Shown piece by piece: positions 41,092-51,897 of a stretch of DNA of 60,784 nt. Under the pieces are notes generated by a model. It had not been told where the DNA came from, searched no databases, and worked only from the letters and a program-made list of their open reading frames with translations. Positions within the stretch are counted from its first letter, which is position 1; each line of letters starts with the position of its first letter. This DNA comes from Phycisphaerales bacterium (lineage in GTDB: Bacteria; Planctomycetota; Phycisphaerae; Phycisphaerales; UBA1924): positions 1 to 60,784 of the forward strand of contig DASPKU010000018.1 of the NCBI GenBank assembly GCA_035627955.1, in the 5' to 3' direction. A program made the position numbers and the translations under genes.

Positions 41092-41409
41092 TTCCGGTCG
41101 CCGCAAGCCAGCGCGAACTGGCGCGGCACCCAGCCTCCGTTCAGAAAAAAACCTCGAAAGAACCGGAATGCGCAAGTTTCGCCGCTCCGCACCCTTACAG
41201 GATCCTCGCCGACAAAATCCAGAAACTTGGTGGCATTTCTCAAAACACCACTTCCCTTCCGCCCCCCTGTCTGGTAAAAACCTCCCCTGAGAGACGACTT
41301 TCGCGGTCCAAGGTTCGCTCATGGCCTGTTTCCAAACCGCCGGCCACGGGTGAGACGGCAAGCCGCGATTCAAGAGGTGCTGCCCGCAAGGGCAGAAAGA
41401 GAGAGACAC
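41092..41409. other. gene-free leader region before two PEP-CTERM genes
   Basis: No supported gene. Close to the start of the next gene is a small hairpin (CTGCCCGCAAGGGCAG, 41391-41396 side included) and a GAAAGAGAGAGAC ribosome-site region. Probably a promoter and 5' untranslated region. Confidence 0.45.
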
Positions 41410-42141
41410 ATGAAGCTCAATGGGTTGATGCTGGTTGCTGGTCTGGTGGTCGCGTCGGGGGTGACGACTGCTCGGGCCGATGTTCCCTGGAACGTCCCCA
41501 ACGGCAGCAACACCGTGCTCTCCTGGCAGAACGGGCGCAGCGATAACGGCCTGTTCGGAAGCAACGTGACCGTCATCGGTGACACGTTCTTCTTCGTCAC
41601 CAACGAGAACTTCGACGCCGCCGCGTCCAACGGCGGCCAGATCACCAAGAGCGACACGCTCCGCGTGACCGTGCACGCTCAGCCCGGCCGGTTCTTCACC
41701 GAGGTGATCTTCGCCTCGCAGGGCAACTACTACGTCTACGGCTCCAACTCGTCGGTCGACGTGCAGGGCAACCTCACGATCAACGACCGCAACTCCCCCC
41801 GCACCGTCAGCGACGCGTTCTCGACGGTCGTCGCCCCCGACGCGGGCTCGGCCGGCAACGCTACCACCATGCCCGTCGTGGGCATGGACGCTGACCAGTA
41901 CGGCACCTGGTACGGCGGCTCCACGGTCGACTTCTCGCTCTTCGGCTTCCCGCCGGTGACCAGCCTCGACCTCATCTTCACCAACACCATCATCGCCATC
42001 TCCGCCCCGGGCGAGACGGCCTCCATCATCACCCTGCCGAACACGCAGGGCTCCTTCTCTCTGAGCATCGTCCCGGCCCCCTCGGCCGCAGCGCTCCTCG
42101 GCCTCGCCGGTCTCGGCCTGGCCAGCCGCCGCCGCCGCTGA
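41410..42141 (+). CDS. PEP-CTERM-like exported protein (tandem copy 1)
   Basis: A 243-residue protein with a signal peptide ending VTTARA, a single beta-sandwich-like domain (SDNGLFGSNVTVIGDTFFFV; SDTLRVTVHAQPGRFFTEV) and a sorting tail with VPAPSAAALLG, a hydrophobic helix and RRRR. Its neighbour at 42243 shares the same plan (FGNPVIAGNTFIFTPSNF; TDTLQVTIAAINGPITGVI), so the two are diverged tandem paralogues. Function unknown. Confidence 0.86.
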   Translation: MKLNGLMLVAGLVVASGVTTARADVPWNVPNGSNTVLSWQNGRSDNGLFGSNVTVIGDTFFFVTNENFDAAASNGGQITKSDTLRVTVHAQPGRFFTEVIFASQGNYYVYGSNSSVDVQGNLTINDRNSPRTVSDAFSTVVAPDAGSAGNATTMPVVGMDADQYGTWYGGSTVDFSLFGFPPVTSLDLIFTNTIIAISAPGETASIITLPNTQGSFSLSIVPAPSAAALLGLAGLGLASRRRR

Positions 42142-42242
42142 TCCTGTCGCCCTTGGCGAAACCCGCTTGCTGACGGCGGGGTTCGCTCTTGCTCAAACCC
42201 GTTTGTTCTCGGAACACCTGTAGACGGATGGAGAGAAGAGAG

Positions 42243-42860
42243 ATGAACGCAATCGTCAGGCTGGCCGGCGTCGCGGTGGTGGCCTTCACCATCGCCCCCG
42301 CGGCCCACGCCATCGTCCAATGGACCAACCCGTCGGGCACCGCGCTCGACTTCACCTGGTCCAACGGTTACACCAACAGCGGCTACTTCGGCAACCCGGT
42401 CATCGCCGGCAATACATTCATCTTCACGCCCTCCAACTTTGGCGCCACCTTCAACAGCCCGAAGACCGACACCCTCCAGGTCACCATCGCCGCCATCAAC
42501 GGCCCGATCACCGGCGTGATCATCCGCGAGTTCGGCAACCGCTCCCACACGAGCGGCAACGTGATCAGCGGCAGCCTCTTCGTCCGCGACCTCAACGTCC
42601 CGGACTTCCCGCAGTTCCAAGACCCGCTCGTCGTCACGAACGGCACGGGCTCGCCCATTCCGTGGTCCGCGATCGCTGTCCGCAACGGCATCTCAATGAA
42701 CAGCCTCCAGCTCACGCTCGTGAACAACATGAGCGCCGCCCTCAGCGGCCGCTGGAACGAGAAGACCCGCATCGAGATCGAGATCGTCCCCACGCCCGCC
42801 GCAGCGACGCTGCTCGCCGGGGCCGGCCTCATCGCCTCCGCCCGCCGTCGTCGGCGCTGA
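42243..42860 (+). CDS. PEP-CTERM-like exported protein (tandem copy 2)
   Basis: A 205-residue paralogue of the preceding gene. The signal peptide ends IAPAAHA; the mature part has FTWSNGYTNSGYFGNPVIAG and SGNVISGSLFVRDLNVPDF, and the tail has VPTPAAATLLAGAGL then RRRRR. AGAGAGAAGAGAG precedes the ATG. A strong terminator follows. Confidence 0.86.
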   Translation: MNAIVRLAGVAVVAFTIAPAAHAIVQWTNPSGTALDFTWSNGYTNSGYFGNPVIAGNTFIFTPSNFGATFNSPKTDTLQVTIAAINGPITGVIIREFGNRSHTSGNVISGSLFVRDLNVPDFPQFQDPLVVTNGTGSPIPWSAIAVRNGISMNSLQLTLVNNMSAALSGRWNEKTRIEIEIVPTPAAATLLAGAGLIASARRRRR

Positions 42861-43027: not shown

Positions 43028-44536
43028 GTGAGGCTGGGCACACCGAGCATCTGTTCACTGCTCCTCGCGATGGGCGCTATGTCGCCGCACGCGCCAGCGC
43101 AGCCGAACACCGACGCTCCTGCCAACCTCGGCCCCTGGGGCCCGCCATTCCGCGCGCAGCCCGGGGTCAAGGACTTCTCCGGCCGACTCATCGTGCGCCC
43201 CTGGCCTCTCGACAGCATGAGCGAGTTGCCCCCGCACGAAGCGCGCTCCCGTGACAGCCAGGCCCGCACCCTCGCCCGCACCTTCACGCACGAGTACGTC
43301 GCGCACGTTGACGAGTACTTCATCACCATCCCGCCCGGCTACACGGAGGACTCCCTGGGCGCGATGCTGCTCGAGTCCGGCCTGTACGAGTGGGTCCGGC
43401 CCGACTGGATTCTGTATCCCGTTCAGGCGCACCAGGTCATCCCCGACGATCCGTGGTTCGAGTCGCAGTGGCATCTGGGGCGCATCTCCGCGCCCGCGGC
43501 GTGGGACATCTCTGCCGGCTCGCCCGAGGTCATCGTCGCCGTCATCGACACCGGCGTGGACTTCACCCACCCCGACCTCGCCAGCAACATGGTCCTGGGG
43601 TACTGCTCGTACTGTGCACCGCCCCGCCCGCAGACCATCAATCCGCCCTGGAACACGATCACGCTCGATGCGAACGGGCACGGCACCGGCGTCGCCGGCG
43701 TGCTCGGCGCGGTGGGCAACAATAACCTCGGCATCTCGGGGGTCGCGTGGAACCTGCGGCTCATGCCCATCCGCGCCACCAACACCTCGGGCACGGGCGG
43801 CTCCTTCGGCAGCATCCAGAACGGCGCCATGTGGGCGTCCGCCAACGGCGCGAAGGTCATCTCCGTCAGTTTCTCTGGGGTGGAGGAGCCGCTGGTGGAC
43901 ACCCTCGGCGCCACCATGCGCTCCCGCAACGTGGTGCTCGTGTGGTCCATGGACAACCGCGGCGTCGACACCGCCGCCACCTTCGACCACCCCAACATCA
44001 CCGTGGTCAGCGGCACGGGCGTCAACGACGAACGCTGGTGCTCGGTCGTGAACCCCACTCTCTGCTCGAGCATCGGGGGCGGCGTCGACATCGCCGCGCC
44101 GGCCCACGGCATCCGCATGACCACGATCGGCGGCGAGTACGGCGTCAACGAGGGCGTGAGCTTCGCCGCGCCGCAGGTCGCCGCGGCCATGGGCCTCATC
44201 CGCAGCGTCGCTCCCTCGCTCCTCGCGGGCGAGGTCGAGCAGGTGCTCCTCGCGGCGGCGGACGACGTCGGCCCGCCCGGCGAGGACTCGTTCTCCGGGC
44301 GCGGGCGCCTGAACGTTCGGCGCGCCATGTGGAACGCCATCATCCGTCAGCACGCCAGTTCGATGCAGCTGGGGGACTTCAACCCGCAGGCCTTCAGCAT
44401 GGACGAGGTCTACGAGTTCCTCCTGCGCCCGATGGACGTGACGGGGGACGCGCTGATTGACGAGAAGGACCCACAAGCCGTGCAGGGCTTCATGCGTCGC
44501 AACGAGTTCAAGGACCTCGTCGCCGACCGGCCCTAG
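43028..44536 (+). CDS. secreted subtilase (S8 family serine peptidase)
   Basis: A 502-residue protein. A weak signal peptide (SICSLLLAMGAMSPHAPA) is followed by a propeptide-like region (about 35-135) and the catalytic domain with Asp in VIDTGVD (D174), His in GHGTGVAG (H218) and Ser in GVSFAAPQV (S378), which replaces the usual GTSMAAP. A single dockerin/EF-hand-like segment DVTGDALIDEKDPQAVQGFM lies near the end. Probably an extracellular protease. I use GTG 43028, as GAGAGA lies upstream and no ATG is better placed. Confidence 0.88.
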   Translation: MRLGTPSICSLLLAMGAMSPHAPAQPNTDAPANLGPWGPPFRAQPGVKDFSGRLIVRPWPLDSMSELPPHEARSRDSQARTLARTFTHEYVAHVDEYFITIPPGYTEDSLGAMLLESGLYEWVRPDWILYPVQAHQVIPDDPWFESQWHLGRISAPAAWDISAGSPEVIVAVIDTGVDFTHPDLASNMVLGYCSYCAPPRPQTINPPWNTITLDANGHGTGVAGVLGAVGNNNLGISGVAWNLRLMPIRATNTSGTGGSFGSIQNGAMWASANGAKVISVSFSGVEEPLVDTLGATMRSRNVVLVWSMDNRGVDTAATFDHPNITVVSGTGVNDERWCSVVNPTLCSSIGGGVDIAAPAHGIRMTTIGGEYGVNEGVSFAAPQVAAAMGLIRSVAPSLLAGEVEQVLLAAADDVGPPGEDSFSGRGRLNVRRAMWNAIIRQHASSMQLGDFNPQAFSMDEVYEFLLRPMDVTGDALIDEKDPQAVQGFMRRNEFKDLVADRP

Positions 44537-44545
44537 GTCGGACGC

Positions 44546-45022
44546 TCAGCGACCCTGCAGGTCCGCCTCGCCCAGCAGCCGGTACTCCTTCCGCCGCAGG
44601 ATCTGCCCCGCGAGCGTGAGGTCGTCCACGGCGAGGGCGATGGTGGGGGCGGTGCTGGAGCGCAGCATCAGCGGGTAGGCGAAGTGGATGCTCAGCTCGG
44701 CCGCGAGCAGGCACAGGCACATGCTCGAGAGGCTCTGGCGCGTGCCGATCTCAACCACGAGCACATCGCGCTGGCTGTAGGGCAGGTGCTCGTTGTGCAG
44801 CACCTCCTTGGCGAGGTCCTCGTTGTTGGTGATGATGCGGACAACGGCATGATCGCTGGCCTCGTGCACCGAGATCGCGCAGATCTGCGTGCCCGAGCCC
44901 TCGAAGGCCTTGACCAGGTCGTGCAGCTTGCCGACCTTGTTCGTGAGGAAGACACTGAACTGGGTCACCGTGGGCGGCGAGTACCCGTGGGCGGTCTCCA
45001 GCGGTGTGGCGGACTGGCTCAT
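44546..45022 (-). CDS. ACT-domain protein
   Basis: A 158-residue soluble protein with a ligand-binding ACT-like fold: VTQFSVFLTNKVGKLHDLVK and ICAISVHEASDHAVVRIITN, followed by a second similar half (TIALAVDDLTLAGQILRRKE). ACT domains sense amino acids. Two ACT-type halves without an enzyme suggest a regulator; target unknown. Start at ATG 45022. Confidence 0.82.
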   Translation of the reverse strand: MSQSATPLETAHGYSPPTVTQFSVFLTNKVGKLHDLVKAFEGSGTQICAISVHEASDHAVVRIITNNEDLAKEVLHNEHLPYSQRDVLVVEIGTRQSLSSMCLCLLAAELSIHFAYPLMLRSSTAPTIALAVDDLTLAGQILRRKEYRLLGEADLQGR

Positions 45023-45136
45023 CGTCCTGATTCCGGGTTCCAAGTTCCAGCCTGGCGGCTCCGGGCGAGCGGCACGGCGCGCCCAAGCGCCAAACGAGCG
45101 TAGCGGGGGCGGCAAGGGTCCACAAGGCCACAATTG

Positions 45137-45166
45137 CAAGGGGGCCGGCTGAACCGGCCCTCTTTC
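45137..45166 (-). terminator. likely terminator of the isc operon
   Basis: GGGCCGGTT / AACCGGCCC-type stem just beyond the iscA stop. The T-run on the minus strand is weak, so some readthrough is possible. Confidence 0.55.
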
Positions 45167-45184
45167 ATCAGCACTTTAGGGCTC

Positions 45185-45559
45185 TTAGACGCTGAAGCTG
45201 GACCCGCACCCGCAGGAGCTGGTCGCGTTGGGGTTGTTGAACACGAAGCCCCGGCCCATCACCTCGTCCTTGAAGTCGACCGTGACGCCGTTCAGGTACA
45301 GCAGGCTCTTGGGGTCCACGATCACCCGGATACCGTGCTGGGTGAACACCTCGTCGGTGTCCTTGCGGCTCTCGGTGAGGTCCAGCAGGTAGCTGAACCC
45401 GGAGCAGCCCCCGCCCTTCACACCGACCCGGAGGCACACCTTCTCGGCGTCCAGTTCCTGGTCCTTGATGATGTGGTGGATCTCCTTGGCCGCGGTCTCG
45501 CTCAGGATGACACCGGTCACGGCATCGGACTGCTGGGGCAGGGTGGTGGTTGTGGACAT
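45185..45559 (-). CDS. iscA: A-type iron-sulfur carrier (IscA/ErpA/HesB)
   Basis: A 124-residue protein that accepts and passes on Fe-S clusters. It has VILSETAAKEIHHIIKDQ, the first ligand Cys in GVKGGGCSGFSY and the pair in SSCGCGSSFSV, plus FVFNNPNA. Last gene of the isc operon. ErpA, IscA and SufA cannot be told apart by these motifs. Confidence 0.93.
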   Translation of the reverse strand: MSTTTTLPQQSDAVTGVILSETAAKEIHHIIKDQELDAEKVCLRVGVKGGGCSGFSYLLDLTESRKDTDEVFTQHGIRVIVDPKSLLYLNGVTVDFKDEVMGRGFVFNNPNATSSCGCGSSFSV

Positions 45560-45646
45560 ATCTCGGGCTCCTTCTATCCAACAGTACGCGGTCTGTCCGG
45601 GTCTGGATTCCCGGGATACCGCCCCTGTTTGGAGTCAGCTACGGTC

Positions 45647-46075
45647 TCAGTGGGCGTGCTCGGGCTGCTCAATGGGCAGGTTGTTCTTGGCCTTGTAGTC
45701 ATTGATCGCGGCCCGGATGGCGTCCTCGGCCAGCACGGAGCAGTGGATCTTGACCGGGGGCAGGCTGAGCTCCTCGACGATCTGGGTGTTGCGGATCGCG
45801 AGGCCCTCGTCCAGGCTCTTGCCCTTGAGCCACTCGGTGGCGACGGAGGAGCTGGCGATGGCCGAGCCGCAGCCGAAGCACTTGAACTTGGCATCCTCGA
45901 TCCTGCCGGTCTGCTCGTTGACCTTGATCTGGAGCTGCATGACGTCGCCGCACTCGGGCGCGCCGACGAGGCCGACGCCCACGTCCTTGCGGGCCTTCAT
46001 CTCGGCCTGGGTTCCGAAGTTGCCCACGTTGCGGGGCTTCTCGTAGTGCTCGATGATCTTCTGGGAGTATGCCAT
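45647..46075 (-). CDS. iscU: iron-sulfur scaffold IscU
   Basis: A 142-residue scaffold on which IscS-derived sulfur and iron are assembled. The three ligand Cys are in GAPECGDVMQLQI, FKCFGCGSAIASSS and KIHCSVLAEDAI. LPPVKIHC matches the conserved LPPVKxHC motif that binds the Hsc chaperone. An N-terminal MAYSQKIIEHYEKPRNVGNF is typical. Confidence 0.96.
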   Translation of the reverse strand: MAYSQKIIEHYEKPRNVGNFGTQAEMKARKDVGVGLVGAPECGDVMQLQIKVNEQTGRIEDAKFKCFGCGSAIASSSVATEWLKGKSLDEGLAIRNTQIVEELSLPPVKIHCSVLAEDAIRAAINDYKAKNNLPIEQPEHAH

Positions 46076-46086
46076 TTCTGCCTTCC

Positions 46087-46353
46087 TCAGTGTTCCAGGA
46101 ACACTGTTACTTCTTGCCCGGATCGTTCCTCGATGTCACGCTGGATATCTGTCACTGCCCGGGCCATGTCATAGCCGTCGAACGGCCCATTGGCATGATG
46201 AATGGCGGGAAGGATCCAGATCCCGAACGACAGCTCCAGCCGGTCTTCGAACAGCTGCAGGTGAAAACGGTCCAGCACATCGCGGCGGGACTTCCGGACC
46301 GCGTCCACGGCCTCAGCCACCTTCGTCTTGTCGGGCACGAAGCTCGGGGTCAT
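46087..46353 (-). CDS. unknown protein coupled to the HEPN gene
   Basis: An 88-residue soluble protein (MTPSFVPDKTKVAEAVDAVR; FGIWILPAIHHANGPFDGYD; GQEVTVFLEH). It overlaps the HEPN gene by ATGA, the arrangement of many toxin-antitoxin pairs. It lacks the GSxxxxxxDxD motif of MNT nucleotidyltransferases, so a HEPN-MNT pair is not supported. Within the isc operon, 11 bases before iscU. Confidence 0.65.
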   Translation of the reverse strand: MTPSFVPDKTKVAEAVDAVRKSRRDVLDRFHLQLFEDRLELSFGIWILPAIHHANGPFDGYDMARAVTDIQRDIEERSGQEVTVFLEH

Positions 46354-46769
46354 GACGCCACCATCCTGCCTGCGTAATGCACCAACGCAACCGCTGTGGC
46401 CTTGCAATCTTCAATCTGCTCCACCGAAACCGTTCCCTCAGGCCCATAGTCCGACTGCACCCGCGCCATGTACACCTCGCGCAATCGTACGCGGAGGGTC
46501 TGTGCCGAGGTCTGGCTCACCGAGGCGTAACGCCTCAGCACGGCCACGACACCGTTGATAGTCGCACGGTGATCCCAGTTGCCCTGAGCGGGAAGGTCCG
46601 CCTGAGCCGGCGTGCACAGCATGATGGCGTGCGCCGCCTGGTAGCACGCGTAGTAGAACCGGCTCGCTGACGATCGCGCGCGCCCGTCACGGCGCAGGAG
46701 CTCCGCGTCCTCGCGCGTCATCTGCGCAAGCCGGAGCCAGTCCTTCGCCCTGGGGTGCTGGGTCCCCAA
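46350..46769 (-). CDS. HEPN-domain protein (UPF0332-like)
   Basis: A 139-residue helical protein. It carries the HEPN pattern RFYYACYQAAHAIML (SxaYYAxF type), NWDHRATING and LREVYMARVQSDYG, resembling the R..aDY helix of UPF0332. The clear RNase motif Rx4-6H is not seen, so catalytic activity is uncertain. A TTG at 46769, one base after the iscS stop, is the likely start; TTG 46790 is an alternative. It is translationally coupled to the next small gene. Confidence 0.7.
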   Translation of the reverse strand: MGTQHPRAKDWLRLAQMTREDAELLRRDGRARSSASRFYYACYQAAHAIMLCTPAQADLPAQGNWDHRATINGVVAVLRRYASVSQTSAQTLRVRLREVYMARVQSDYGPEGTVSVEQIEDCKATAVALVHYAGRMVAS

Positions 46770-46770
46770 C

Positions 46771-48024
46771 TCAGTGCACCCCCCACACAACCTTGGAGAG
46801 GTCGATCCCTTCCTTGTGCATGTCGTACAGCGGGCTCAGCTCGCGGAGCTTCTTGACCGACTCGATGATTCGCTCCGCGGCGTGGTCCACCTGCTCCTGC
46901 GTGGTCCACTTGCCCATGCTCAGCCGCAGCGAGGAGTGGGCGAGGTCGTCGCCCACGCCCAAGCCCTTGAGCACGTAGCTGGGCTCGAGGCTGGCGCTGG
47001 TGCACGCGGAGCCGCTGGAGCACGCGATCTCCTTGACCGCCATCATCAGGCTCTCGCCCTCGACGAAGCCGAAGGAGATGTTCGTGATGTGCGGGAGCCG
47101 CTTCTCGCGGTGGCCGTTGACGGCGCAGGTGTCCAGCGCGCTCGTCACCTTCTGCTCCAGCCGCTGCCGCAGGGCGAGCAGGCGGGTCGCGTCCTTGTCC
47201 ATCTCCGCCAGCGCGATCTCCGCGGCCTTGCCGAAGCCGACGATCCCCGGCACGTTGAGCGTGCCCGAGCGGAAGCCGCGCTCCTGCCCGCCACCGTCCA
47301 CCAGCGCCGTCAGCCGCACCCGCGGTTTGCGCCGCCGCACGTACAGCGCCCCCACGCCCTTGGGCCCGTACATCTTGTGGGCGCTCATGCTGAGCAGGTC
47401 GACGTTGTCCCTGTTCACGTCCACCGGCATCTTGCCGACCCACTGGGTGGCGTCGGTGTGGAAGATCACGCCCTTCTCGTGGCACAGGGCGCCGATGGCC
47501 GGCACCTCGTTGATCGTCCCGATCTCGTTGTTGGCCCACATGATGGTCACGAGGATGGTGTCCTCGCGCATCGCGCTCTTCACCATCTCCGCCGTGACGA
47601 TGCCGTCTTTGCCCGGCTCCAGGAAGGTGACGTCGAACCCCTCCTTCTGCAGCCGCTTGCACGGGTCCAGCACCGCCTTGTGCTCGATGATGCAGGAGAT
47701 GATGTGCCCGCGCGGCTGGCCGGAGCCGGCCGGGGCCTTCTCGTACATGTAGGCCGCGCCCTTGATGGCGATGTTGTTGGCCTCGGTGGAGCCGGAGGTG
47801 AACACGACCTCCTTTTCGTCGGCGCCGATGAGCTTTGCGACCTGCTCACGCGCCTTGTCCACCGCGGCCTCGGCCTCCCAGCCGAACCGATGGTTGCGGC
47901 TGCCGGGGTTCCCGAACACCTGGGTGAAGTAGGGGAGCATCGCCTCCACCACCCGAGGGTCGGTGGGGGTGGTGGCGGCGTGGTCAAGATAGATGGGAGC
48001 CTGAGCGGGGGCGGGGTTTGCCAT
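46771..48024 (-). CDS. iscS: cysteine desulfurase IscS
   Basis: A 417-residue PLP enzyme that takes sulfur from cysteine for Fe-S assembly. Motifs are [36 protein letters not shown], the PLP Lys in [17 protein letters not shown], and the active-site Cys in [16 protein letters not shown]. First gene of the isc operon. Confidence 0.96.
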
Positions 48025-48054
48025 AGCGGGAGGATTCTAGGCGCGGGCTGAGTT

Positions 48055-48075
48055 TTAGAATCGTTCTAGAACGCT
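48055..48075 (-). promoter_or_regulatory. palindrome upstream of iscS, possible operator
   Basis: A perfect GTTCTAGAAC palindrome at 48063-48072 with an adjacent TTAGAAT-like half repeat, about 40 bases before the iscS start. It could bind an Fe-S-responsive regulator, but does not match the IscR consensus I know. Confidence 0.35.
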
Positions 48076-48148
48076 GTTCACGCCTATTGCGATTTCGCGT
48101 GCTTTTGACGCCAGCCCGCTGTTTCCTTGGTCAGTCCGCATGCGCATG

Positions 48149-48175
48149 AAAAACGCCGCTCTCGGGCGGCGTCAG
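48149..48175 (-). terminator. terminator after the 27-codon ORF
   Basis: On the minus strand: GACGCCGCCC / GAGCGGCGT-type stem followed by TTTTT. It begins about 30 bases after the small ORF stop. Confidence 0.85.
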
Positions 48176-48200
48176 GGTCACCAGTTGAGGCAGGTGAATG

Positions 48201-48284
48201 CTACTGCAGCAGGTAGGAATCCTTGGGCTCGGTCGCCTTGAACGCGTCGATCCAAGAGAGGACGAGAAGCTTGATGGTCGTCAT
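48201..48284 (-). CDS. 27-residue small protein
   Basis: An ORF of 27 codons (MTTIKLLVLS...KDSYLLQ) with GGAGG 8 bases before the ATG and a strong terminator downstream. The first half is amphipathic to hydrophobic (LLVLSWIDAF), the second half polar. No family recognised; it might be a leader or membrane-active peptide, or a peptide precursor. It lies 91 bases downstream of the GT4 gene on the same strand. Confidence 0.6.
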   Translation of the reverse strand: MTTIKLLVLSWIDAFKATEPKDSYLLQ

Positions 48285-48374
48285 CGGGGGAACCTCCACG
48301 GGCGCAAAGACGCCGCATGAAAGCTGCCACAGGGATCGGCCCGCGGCCAATAAAGCGCGGGAGATTTTTGCGTG

Positions 48375-49535
48375 TTACCGGGCCTTGGCCGCGGCGTAGC
48401 GGATTGCCGCCTCCATCCCATCCACCATCCTGGGGAGGCAGAACTCGGTCTCGACAGTCGCCAGTGCCCCCGAACTGAGGCGGGCGCGGAGGGCGTCGTC
48501 GGTCAGGAGCTGGCGGAGGGCCTGGGTGAGGGCTTCAGCGTCGCCGTCCGGGTAGACCAGGCCGTTGTGGCCATGCCGGAGGGACTCGATCTCGGGGTTC
48601 TGCTGCTCCCGCTTGTCGCTGGTGATGACCGGCAGCGAGTAACCGAAGGCGTGCAGGATGCTCAGGCCGATGTTGGCGGGGTAGCAGAAGACCTGGCTGG
48701 AGAGGAACCAGGGGGCGAGGGAGTCCTCCTCGTAGATGGCCCCGAGGAAGCGGACACGGTCGGCGATGCCCAGGGTGTCCGCGAGGGCGCGAACCTCGTC
48801 CTGACCCTGGCCTTTGCCGATGAGGGCGACGCGCAGGCGCGGGAGGTCCGGCGCGAGCTTCGCGGCGGCGCGGAGGAGCAGGTCGAGGCGGTTCGCGGGG
48901 TCGAAGCGCGAGACGTAGAGGATGGTCTGAGTGCCCACGAGGTCGTTGGTCGCCTGGAATGCGGCGAGGCGCTGCGGGTTGTTCAGCCAGGCGTCGCGGG
49001 CGGCTCGGATGGGCGTCTGGTCGAGACTGTTGAGTGCGACGAAGACGCGCTCGGGGCTGGAGGCGCCCCCGGCGATGTAGGCGCTCGCGGCCGTGCGGTT
49101 GTAGAAGAGGAGGGCCGTGCCCATGTCGGCGATGCGGCGGCGGGTGTCGGCGCGCCAGCCCGTCTCGGTCTTGGAGTAGCCGTGCCCCCAGAGGATGGTG
49201 CCGACCCCGTTGCGGCGGGCGCGGATCAGGGCGGGCACGAGGCTGAGGAAACGCGAGCTCCACGAGAGGATGACGACGTCAGCCCGCTTGAGGGTGGCGT
49301 GCGAGTACTGCGCCTTGTGCCACAAAGCTACAGAGCCCGGCAGGCCAATCGGCGTGAAAGGGACCAGCGTGCCTTTGAACCCCTCGGGCTCAACGTTTGG
49401 GATCAGCGGGTCGTGGCCGTAGAGGAGGTGCAGGTCGATGCCCGGGCGGTGCGCAAGCTCGCGGTAGACCGGGACGCGGTAGCGCGCCAGGCTTGGCTGC
49501 TGGATGACGACATGGATCGGGCTGGGTATCGGCAA
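48375..49535 (-). CDS. glycosyltransferase family 4 (GT-B)
   Basis: A 386-residue GT-B enzyme. The N-domain begins HVVIQQPSLARYRVPVYREL and the donor domain has ILYVSRFDPANRLDLLLRAA, LIGKGQGQDEV, VRFLGAIYEEDSLAPWFLSS and the E-x7-E-like GLSILHAFGYSLPVITSD. It probably transfers a sugar from a nucleotide donor onto a surface glycan; acceptor unknown. No polysaccharide cluster is adjacent. Confidence 0.9.
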   Translation of the reverse strand: MPIPSPIHVVIQQPSLARYRVPVYRELAHRPGIDLHLLYGHDPLIPNVEPEGFKGTLVPFTPIGLPGSVALWHKAQYSHATLKRADVVILSWSSRFLSLVPALIRARRNGVGTILWGHGYSKTETGWRADTRRRIADMGTALLFYNRTAASAYIAGGASSPERVFVALNSLDQTPIRAARDAWLNNPQRLAAFQATNDLVGTQTILYVSRFDPANRLDLLLRAAAKLAPDLPRLRVALIGKGQGQDEVRALADTLGIADRVRFLGAIYEEDSLAPWFLSSQVFCYPANIGLSILHAFGYSLPVITSDKREQQNPEIESLRHGHNGLVYPDGDAEALTQALRQLLTDDALRARLSSGALATVETEFCLPRMVDGMEAAIRYAAAKAR

Positions 49536-50940: not shown

Positions 50941-51621
50941 TCAGCGACGGCGGCGGGCCAGCGCCAGGCCGCCCAGGCCCAGCAGCGCGATCGAGCCGGG
51001 GCTGGGGATGGTGTAGGCGAGGAACTGGCCGGAACTGGAGGGAACGCCCCAGTCGTTGGTGGCCATGTCGCTGCGGCTGAGGTGATCAACGCCGGGGTCG
51101 TTGCCGCCGCCGCTGCTCATCACGTCGAAGTAGAAGGTGCCGTCGCTGGTAAGGCCCAGCAGCGAGCGGGACAGGGTGACGACCTGCGTGGTGAGGCTGG
51201 AGCCGCTGATGCCGGGGCCGGCGTATGTCGCCGCCAGCAGCGTGTTGCCGCCGAAGCCGTCCATTTGCCGGAGCTCGCCGCCAAAGTTGCTGCCGCCGTC
51301 ATCGGCCCAGGTGCCAACCCAGAAGTCGATGCCCTGGCCGTTCCAGCTGATGGGGCGACCCCAGCCGTTGCCCGCGTCGTTGGCGCCGCCCGCGCCGTTG
51401 ATGGCGATCATGTACTTGCCCCAGGTGGGGTTGGACACATCGCCGCGGGTGGTGATCTCGAAGGTGATAGTGCTCGCGTCGTGGGTCACGAGCACGCTGG
51501 CGATGTCCAGGTGCGCGTGGTTGTTGTCGAAGATCTCGTTCTGAGTGTCGGTGTAGATGGCGCCCTGCGCCATACCAGCCGCCGCGAGCGCGACGGCAAC
51601 AGTGATGCCTGCCAGCTTCAT
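50941..51621 (-). CDS. PEP-CTERM-like exported protein
   Basis: A 226-residue protein. The signal peptide ends LAAAGMAQGA; the mature part is beta-rich (HAHLDIASVLVTHDASTITF; GQGIDFWVGTWADDGGSNF) and the sorting tail is IPSPGSIALLG, a hydrophobic stretch, then RRRR. GGGAGAG precedes the ATG at 51621. Function unknown. Confidence 0.84.
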   Translation of the reverse strand: MKLAGITVAVALAAAGMAQGAIYTDTQNEIFDNNHAHLDIASVLVTHDASTITFEITTRGDVSNPTWGKYMIAINGAGGANDAGNGWGRPISWNGQGIDFWVGTWADDGGSNFGGELRQMDGFGGNTLLAATYAGPGISGSSLTTQVVTLSRSLLGLTSDGTFYFDVMSSGGGNDPGVDHLSRSDMATNDWGVPSSSGQFLAYTIPSPGSIALLGLGGLALARRRR

Positions 51622-51897
51622 CTTGTCTCTCCCTGGGCTTTCGCCCAAATCGGTCTCTGACGCCAGCGCGGTCACGCGCAGGCGGTATCTCCTGATGCCG
51701 CACAGGGTACCAGCACGGCCGGATTCAGCAACAGGGGCGTCGGCAAAATGAGCCGGACGGAGGCCTGGAGTGGTGGCCGATAATGCACGCGATCCCCGAT
51801 TCCGGGGTCAGCGTGGCTCCCGACGGCTGTGACGGTGCGGGCGGGTCTTCAACTCCTCCCGATCTTCGCTGGTTTACCGAGCCGCCGGCCAACGACA

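Follow-up and report, generated by a model that had tools for sequence, protein, structure and literature searches.

A HEPN-domain gene and a small partner gene lie between iscS and iscU in a Phycisphaerales bacterium, and the same pair recurs in other genomes, mostly at a few fixed junctions inside housekeeping operons. We consider it rather likely, from the sequence comparisons described here, that the two genes form a toxin-antitoxin-like module carried along in such operons, with the operon supplying the partner, and that it has moved as a cassette. The HEPN protein is probably an RNA-cutting toxin with an active site of the H + R..DY type.

The pair was found in the window, that is, the whole stretch of 60,784 nucleotides that was analysed, within a co-linear run of isc genes (Table 1). 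An earlier note on this DNA had described a HEPN gene and an 88-residue gene that overlap by ATGA between iscS and iscU. The open reading frames, the sequence and the Pfam matches agree with this to the base. The iscS stop and the TTG start of the HEPN gene are 1 nt apart, and the partner stop and the iscU ATG are 11 nt apart. Since the junctions of the modules are short, ranging from a few bases to some tens, we infer that the pair is expressed from the transcript of iscS-iscU. A scan of 44500-48600 for sigma-70-like promoters gave no site, but as shuffled sequences gave only 0.2, the scan has no power here. Another TTG at 46790 would give a longer HEPN frame; in the isc-site homologue L017 the HEPN start is equivalent to the TTG at 46769.

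Table 1. Features of the module and its neighbours in the window.
Feature	Position	Strand	Remarks
iscS (cysteine desulfurase)	46771-48024	-	Upstream of the module; Pfam Aminotran_5, E 2.7e-84
HEPN gene, 139 aa	46350-46769	-	TTG start at 46769; Pfam PF05168, E 6.6e-6; PADLOC HEPN_IX, E 5.4e-6
H67 codon, invariant, aligned with catalytic H64 of the retron-Kva2 HEPN	46569-46571	-	Position derived by hand
R103-V-Q-S-D107 codons, R..[AS]D[YH] motif in 40/40; R103 aligned with Kva2 R122	46449-46463	-	Position derived by hand
ATGA overlap of HEPN stop and partner start	46350-46353	-	Sequence
Partner gene, 88 aa, acidic, pI 5.2	46087-46353	-	ORF call
iscU (Fe-S scaffold)	45647-46075	-	Downstream of the module; Pfam NifU_N, E 2.5e-50
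IscA/SufA-like gene, same run	45185-45559	-	Pfam Fe-S_biosyn, E 2.4e-19

The assignment to the HEPN family, also made in that note, was supported. PF05168 matched the window protein with 26.7 bits, above the cut-off of 22, with the best stretch at residues 15-58, and in the homologues L003-L005 the match spans nearly the whole profile. In the PADLOC name HEPN_IX, we take IX to stand for the retron type. The NCBIfam search with the window HEPN gave no match, and the window partner fell into no Pfam and no NCBIfam family. The GC3 of the HEPN and partner genes was 0.80 and 0.74, compared with 0.96 in both iscS and iscU, where codon bias may raise GC3 if the flanking genes are highly expressed. 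At the other loci, the GC content of the module was below that of the flanks in many cases, though not in all. The search for insertion-site repeats gave one chance-like direct repeat of 11 nt with both copies within the module. An 8-bp palindrome at 46088-46106 spans the end of the partner gene just 5' of the iscU start; as judged by eye in folds of 63 bases, it is not repeated in the other seven isc loci.

The distribution of the pair was analysed with profile searches. The first search covered 61 genomes, the window's own and 60 relatives. Outside the window's genome it gave three distant HEPNs; each lies between rpoB and rpoC and is followed by a short gene. A profile of four HEPNs was then run on 301 genomes of the order and gave 16 matches in 15 genomes at E 1e-4. 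When the flanking genes were located by tblastn, 13 of these were found at rpoB-rpoC and 3 at iscS-iscU. Wider HEPN profile searches were done in overlapping samples of 392 genomes of the phylum, 29 genomes of the class of G592 and 397 genomes of the window's class. The E-values in the 397 genomes were two-humped, with 32 matches in 29 genomes at E <=4.3e-20 and the next match at 2.5e-14. Similarly, the 392 genomes gave 6 matches in 5 genomes at E <=2.8e-24, followed by 4.5e-12, and the 29 genomes of the class of G592 contributed no new genome at the strong level. We defined the family as the strong hump of the E-value distribution. Counting one locus per place and setting a fossil copy apart, this resulted in 40 modules of HEPN and partner from 39 loci in 37 genomes, a recurrence that is not due to chance. 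The window's genome itself has two copies, one at the isc and one at the rpo site (L008 and L023).

In all 40 modules the partner adjoins the HEPN gene, and all partners belong to one family. When 17 members were used to build a partner profile, it also detected the other 23 partners, which had no share in the profile. For a control, 27 loci with generic, weaker HEPN matches (L029-L053, L056 and L082) were analysed. None of them had the partner (best E 0.26) or any of the flanking genes known from the rpo, isc and glt sites. The HEPN and partner genes overlap by exactly 4 nt in 23 of the 40 modules and lie within 15 nt of each other, in either direction, in 37; the HEPN gene of L083 is without a usual start codon. 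The earlier note had held that a pair scattered over unrelated places and lacking a constant partner would count against it. The places do differ, whereas the partner is fixed throughout. Run on 382 genomes of the phylum, the partner profile gave matches at 6 places, which lie in 5 genomes already known to carry the module. The window partner alone as a query found nothing in the 60 relatives; only the family profile finds partners. A match of the partner in Thiothrix (L007) was discarded as spurious, being short and in a frame that, by eye, overlaps a larger Sel1-like gene. With single-sequence queries, which reach close relatives only, there was no match to the window partner or the L088 HEPN in phages, to the L028 HEPN or the L085 partner in plasmids, or to the L028 partner or the L088 HEPN in viral contigs.

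The residues R37, H67, R103 and D107 of the HEPN are invariant in all 40 modules, and Y39 is present in 39. An HEPN active-site motif, either Rx4-6H or R..D with a histidine elsewhere, is found in every member through H67, R103 and D107. This corresponds to the variant listed for PF05168 in Table 1 of PMC3710099, in which an aspartate replaces the histidine of the motif and a conserved histidine lies elsewhere. The HEPN profile also matched the HEPN of retron-Kva2 (PDB 36ht) with E 8.1e-7. In one stretch of the alignment (i-E 2.3e-5), H67 corresponds to H64 and Y39/Y40 to Y41/Y42. In a second stretch, R103 corresponds to R122 and D107-Y108 to D126-Y127; this stretch is weak alone, with 2.6 bits, and depends on the R-x3-D-Y word that both proteins have. 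According to the available part of a preprint on retron-Kva2 (PMC13405049), the HEPN substitutions H64A, R122A and Y40-42A each abolish the defence against T5, and the effector reportedly degrades tRNA. By sequence, the nearest solved relatives are AF0298 (UPF0332, PDB 2hsb; E 6.2e-8), 9xbc (1.9e-9) and 9xbd (1.6e-10); papers on the latter two were not found in the open-licence literature. The earlier note had also named the lack of a predicted HEPN fold as a point against it; a single-sequence model of the window HEPN was all-helical but of low confidence (mean pLDDT 59.5). With this poor model, Foldseek gave weak helical matches only (best E 0.64) and VIA-align had no HEPN among the 50 listed matches. 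The HEPN has a median pI of 9.9. The preserved putative active site and the pairing of a basic HEPN with an acidic partner support a toxin-antitoxin or RNA-targeting character, as the earlier note had proposed.

The 40 modules are located between rpoB and rpoC (24), iscS and iscU (8), gltB and gltD (2), and rpsL and rpsG (1, with the S12 and S7 flanks confirmed with Pfam), while five are elsewhere (L083, L088, L089, L090 and L091). The 35 modules at the operon junctions have the operon genes as neighbours, in some cases together with a GNAT gene or with a Uma2 and a protease-like gene. How often the rpoB-rpoC and iscS-iscU junctions are filled was surveyed in 41 genomes each. For rpoB-rpoC, 30 junctions were read from 40 matches. 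Ten were empty (72-145 nt) and 20 had 278-1088 nt, with the module in three (L124, L126 and L152), a fossil module in one (L146) and other frames in 16, in which no HEPN or partner match was better than E 0.15. In this order, the rpoB-rpoC junction is thus a hotspot of insertion, for other genes too, which makes the module count there a weaker indication of specificity than the count at isc. For iscS-iscU, 30 junctions were read from 33 iscU matches with the window included. Here, 29 were empty (19-147 nt) and the window alone was filled, with 695 nt; the other seven isc carriers lie outside these 41 genomes.

Several of these sites had further features. By eye, the 16 other inserts (within L124-L153) contain lipoprotein-like, small membrane and sulfotransferase-like frames, and some could not be placed. 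One of the 13 rpoB-rpoC matches in the order, L022 in genome G038, is a fossil module at 1438-1686 of that locus, in which an internal deletion has brought the beginning of the HEPN and the end of the partner together in one reading frame. Genome G801 (L087/L066) has two modules in tandem in the order rpoB-HEPN-partner-GNAT-HEPN-partner-rpoC, and a GNAT acetyltransferase gene also accompanies the module at rpoB-rpoC in G942 (L062). In G569 (L027/L086), aspartyl-protease-like and Uma2 nuclease-like genes lie between gltB and the HEPN gene, so the gltB-gltD junction also accepts other inserts.

The pair could be passive cargo. It would then be an ordinary pair of accessory or defence genes that inserted at tolerant sites, and its position in an operon would have no functional meaning. 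We regard this as a possible but unlikely explanation. It would account for the five modules outside the four operon junctions, and the recurrence at rpoB-rpoC may partly reflect a permissive junction that is filled in two thirds of the cases, mostly by other frames. However, the iscS-iscU junction is no hotspot, yet it holds eight modules with HEPNs of one lineage, and the modules at rpsL-rpsG and gltB-gltD are placed alike. The HEPN tree also argues against passive cargo. On this tree, 5 changes suffice to explain the five place labels, close to the minimum of 4 and far from the shuffled mean of 14.9; HEPN lineages are faithful to their sites.

The eight isc rows formed one side of a branch of the HEPN tree with a support of 92/83, which was present in 95% of 200 bootstrap trees, and the isc group was one clade (70/87) in the joined tree of HEPN and partner. 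A single clade of all 24 rpo rows was rejected (p-AU 1.7e-6). In the tree of the partner alone, which has several long branches, the isc rows were not one clade (4 changes), and all labels needed 10 changes at a shuffled mean of 15.0. The distances of HEPN and partner were correlated with r 0.52, and none of 2000 permutations was as high. The HEPN distances correlated with those of the N-terminal part of the host RpoC (r 0.49, 24 rows), which fits a partly vertical inheritance, and with those of RpoB (r 0.36, 23 rows). The correlation of the partner with RpoB was weak (r 0.16, reached in 126 of 2000 permutations).

Selection was analysed in six pairs of one genus (g437). The dN/dS was 0.12-0.19 for the HEPN in all six pairs and 0.07-0.12 for the partner in three of them, the other three being saturated; both genes are under purifying selection. 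The HEPN dS was two to five times that of rpoC in five pairs (for L074/L080, 2.5 versus 0.5) and about half of it in one (L072/L079, 0.78 versus 1.68), where values near or above 1 are to be taken as saturated and codon bias may lower the dS of highly expressed flanks. Since the HEPN and rpoC values are unequal, the module and its flanks do not have one shared history. Taken together, these comparisons indicate an old and diverse module that occupies few junctions, is often replaced and lost, and is kept under purifying selection.

The earlier note had further suggested that the place in the isc operon may tie the module to the Fe-S status. The same module is commoner at rpoB-rpoC and also occurs at gltB-gltD and rpsL-rpsG. 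No conserved cysteine is present in the HEPN or the partner family in the 40 modules, so Fe-S sensing by the pair is unsupported, and by eye no IscR-like gene was seen in the ORF list beside the isc run. The suggested tie is not supported by anything beyond the operon position. The missing cysteine likewise speaks against the broader alternative that the pair regulates its operon, with the HEPN as an RNase that cuts its own polycistronic mRNA, or with the partner binding this mRNA, and thereby tunes the dosage of iscU or rpoC. The junctions rpoB-rpoC, iscS-iscU and gltB-gltD each separate genes for subunits or partner proteins of one complex, and the 4-nt overlap and the short junctions suggest coupling. 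However, rpsL-rpsG fits this dosage logic poorly, no hairpin at the partner-iscU junction is common to the eight isc loci, and most relatives manage without the module, with any match at E 1e-4 confined to the 15 of 301 genomes of the order. We therefore judge operon regulation to be improbable.

The partner proteins are mostly acidic, with a median pI of 5.1, but a pI <6 is found in only 29 of 40, which counts against the favoured reading. A single-sequence model of the window partner (mean pLDDT 73) has the order alpha-beta-beta-alpha-beta, and Foldseek found nothing for it at E 0.001. The best VIA-align rows were the C-terminal domain of NFU1 (Z 6.0), a T3SS domain, acyl-CoA ligase domains and KH-like proteins. 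Since all of these are below the trusted level of the tool, we claim no fold family. The partner profile gave a best E of 0.0039 against the PDB sequences, to a ParM hybrid fusion with no stretch passing alone, followed by a 'bracket-shaped' protein (0.024) and AroH chorismate mutases (0.17-0.62). The Pfam search with the 40 partners at E <=0.1 gave 14 families with one member each, the best being DUF7088 with E 4.8e-4, and these were read as chance matches. By these comparisons, the partner is a new small protein family.

That the partner is not an MNT enzyme, as stated in the earlier note, holds at the sequence level. A strict MNT-like motif was found in none of the 40 partners and a loose one in 4, and no nucleotidyltransferase family was among their Pfam matches. 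With this, a decayed or minimal MNT partner, which would make the pair a variant HEPN-MNT (type VII) system, is most improbable, even though VIA-align listed 5yep_A (SO_3166-SO_3165 entry, which we take to be a HEPN-MNT complex of which 5yep_A may be either chain) at rank 45 of 50 listed matches (Z 4.6, rmsd 2.9, 61 residues), below the trusted Z and tied with many unrelated rows.

The pair resembles type II toxin-antitoxin genes in consisting of two short adjacent or overlapping genes, as found here in 40 of 40 modules. A toxin-first order is less usual for type II pairs, and here the HEPN gene precedes the partner. The HEPN-MNT type VII systems, as outlined in the accessible parts of PMC7641770, PMC11586414 and PMC4621449, are alike in that a gene for a candidate HEPN toxin adjoins one for a small companion, but the companion here has no MNT motif or family. 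The HEPN-T family PF05168 (UPF0332; described in part in PMC3710099) shares the Pfam match and the exchanged motif residue, whereas here the partner belongs to a small new family, is not an MNT by its sequence, and is located with the HEPN gene inside core operons. The type IX retron effector (retron-Kva2; available part of PMC13405049) shares the profile match and the aligned H, R and YY residues that were mutated, with the R stretch weak. Unlike the retron, our module includes no reverse transcriptase; its neighbours in the window are iscS and iscU. We file the pair as a HEPN toxin-antitoxin-like module that is neither HEPN-MNT nor retron. In the accessible parts of the open-licence literature, no description of a HEPN and partner module in core operons was found, although it may be described elsewhere, and nothing was found there on a HEPN together with iscS and iscU. 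The terms 'RNA polymerase' and 'planctomycete' are absent from the main text, as available, of the HEPN survey PMC3710099.

The favoured reading, a toxin-antitoxin-like module carried by housekeeping operons, would work as follows. The HEPN would be a ribonuclease related to the retron type IX effectors and toxic to the cell when free. Translation of the small acidic partner would start at the overlapping ATGA, and the partner would bind the HEPN and restrain it. The module would be co-transcribed with iscS-iscU or, in relatives, with rpoB-rpoC, gltB-gltD or rpsL-rpsG, so that the supply of the partner would depend on the host operon. Moved and replaced as a cassette, it would mostly have kept to its fixed junctions.

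A more far-reaching version is that such pairs are operon-anchored sentinels. The HEPN RNase and its restrainer would use the housekeeping operon as promoter and hostage, and lost expression would free the RNase. A phage shut-off, a cleavage of the mRNA or a loss of the cassette might starve the cell of the restrainer, and the freed RNase would then shut down the cell. The operons concerned encode RNA polymerase, ribosomal proteins and Fe-S functions, and separate lineages would have specialised on separate junctions. We put this forward tentatively and consider it rather doubtful. Searches for toxin-antitoxin and abortive-infection genes usually look in defence islands and mobile elements, and they would overlook a HEPN pair that has a new partner family and stays at a few junctions of core operons. 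Such a pair also makes it possible to test cleanly whether the transcription of housekeeping genes can in itself act as the signal that keeps a toxin down. Through this pair, moreover, the H + R..DY active site that has recently been worked out in a retron gains a second setting, one that lacks a reverse transcriptase.

Elsewhere in the window, three secreted-looking proteins (41350-42141, 42189-42860 and 50941-51675) have PEP-CTERM-like tails with a hydrophobic stretch and an arginine run, as seen by eye in the ORF list.
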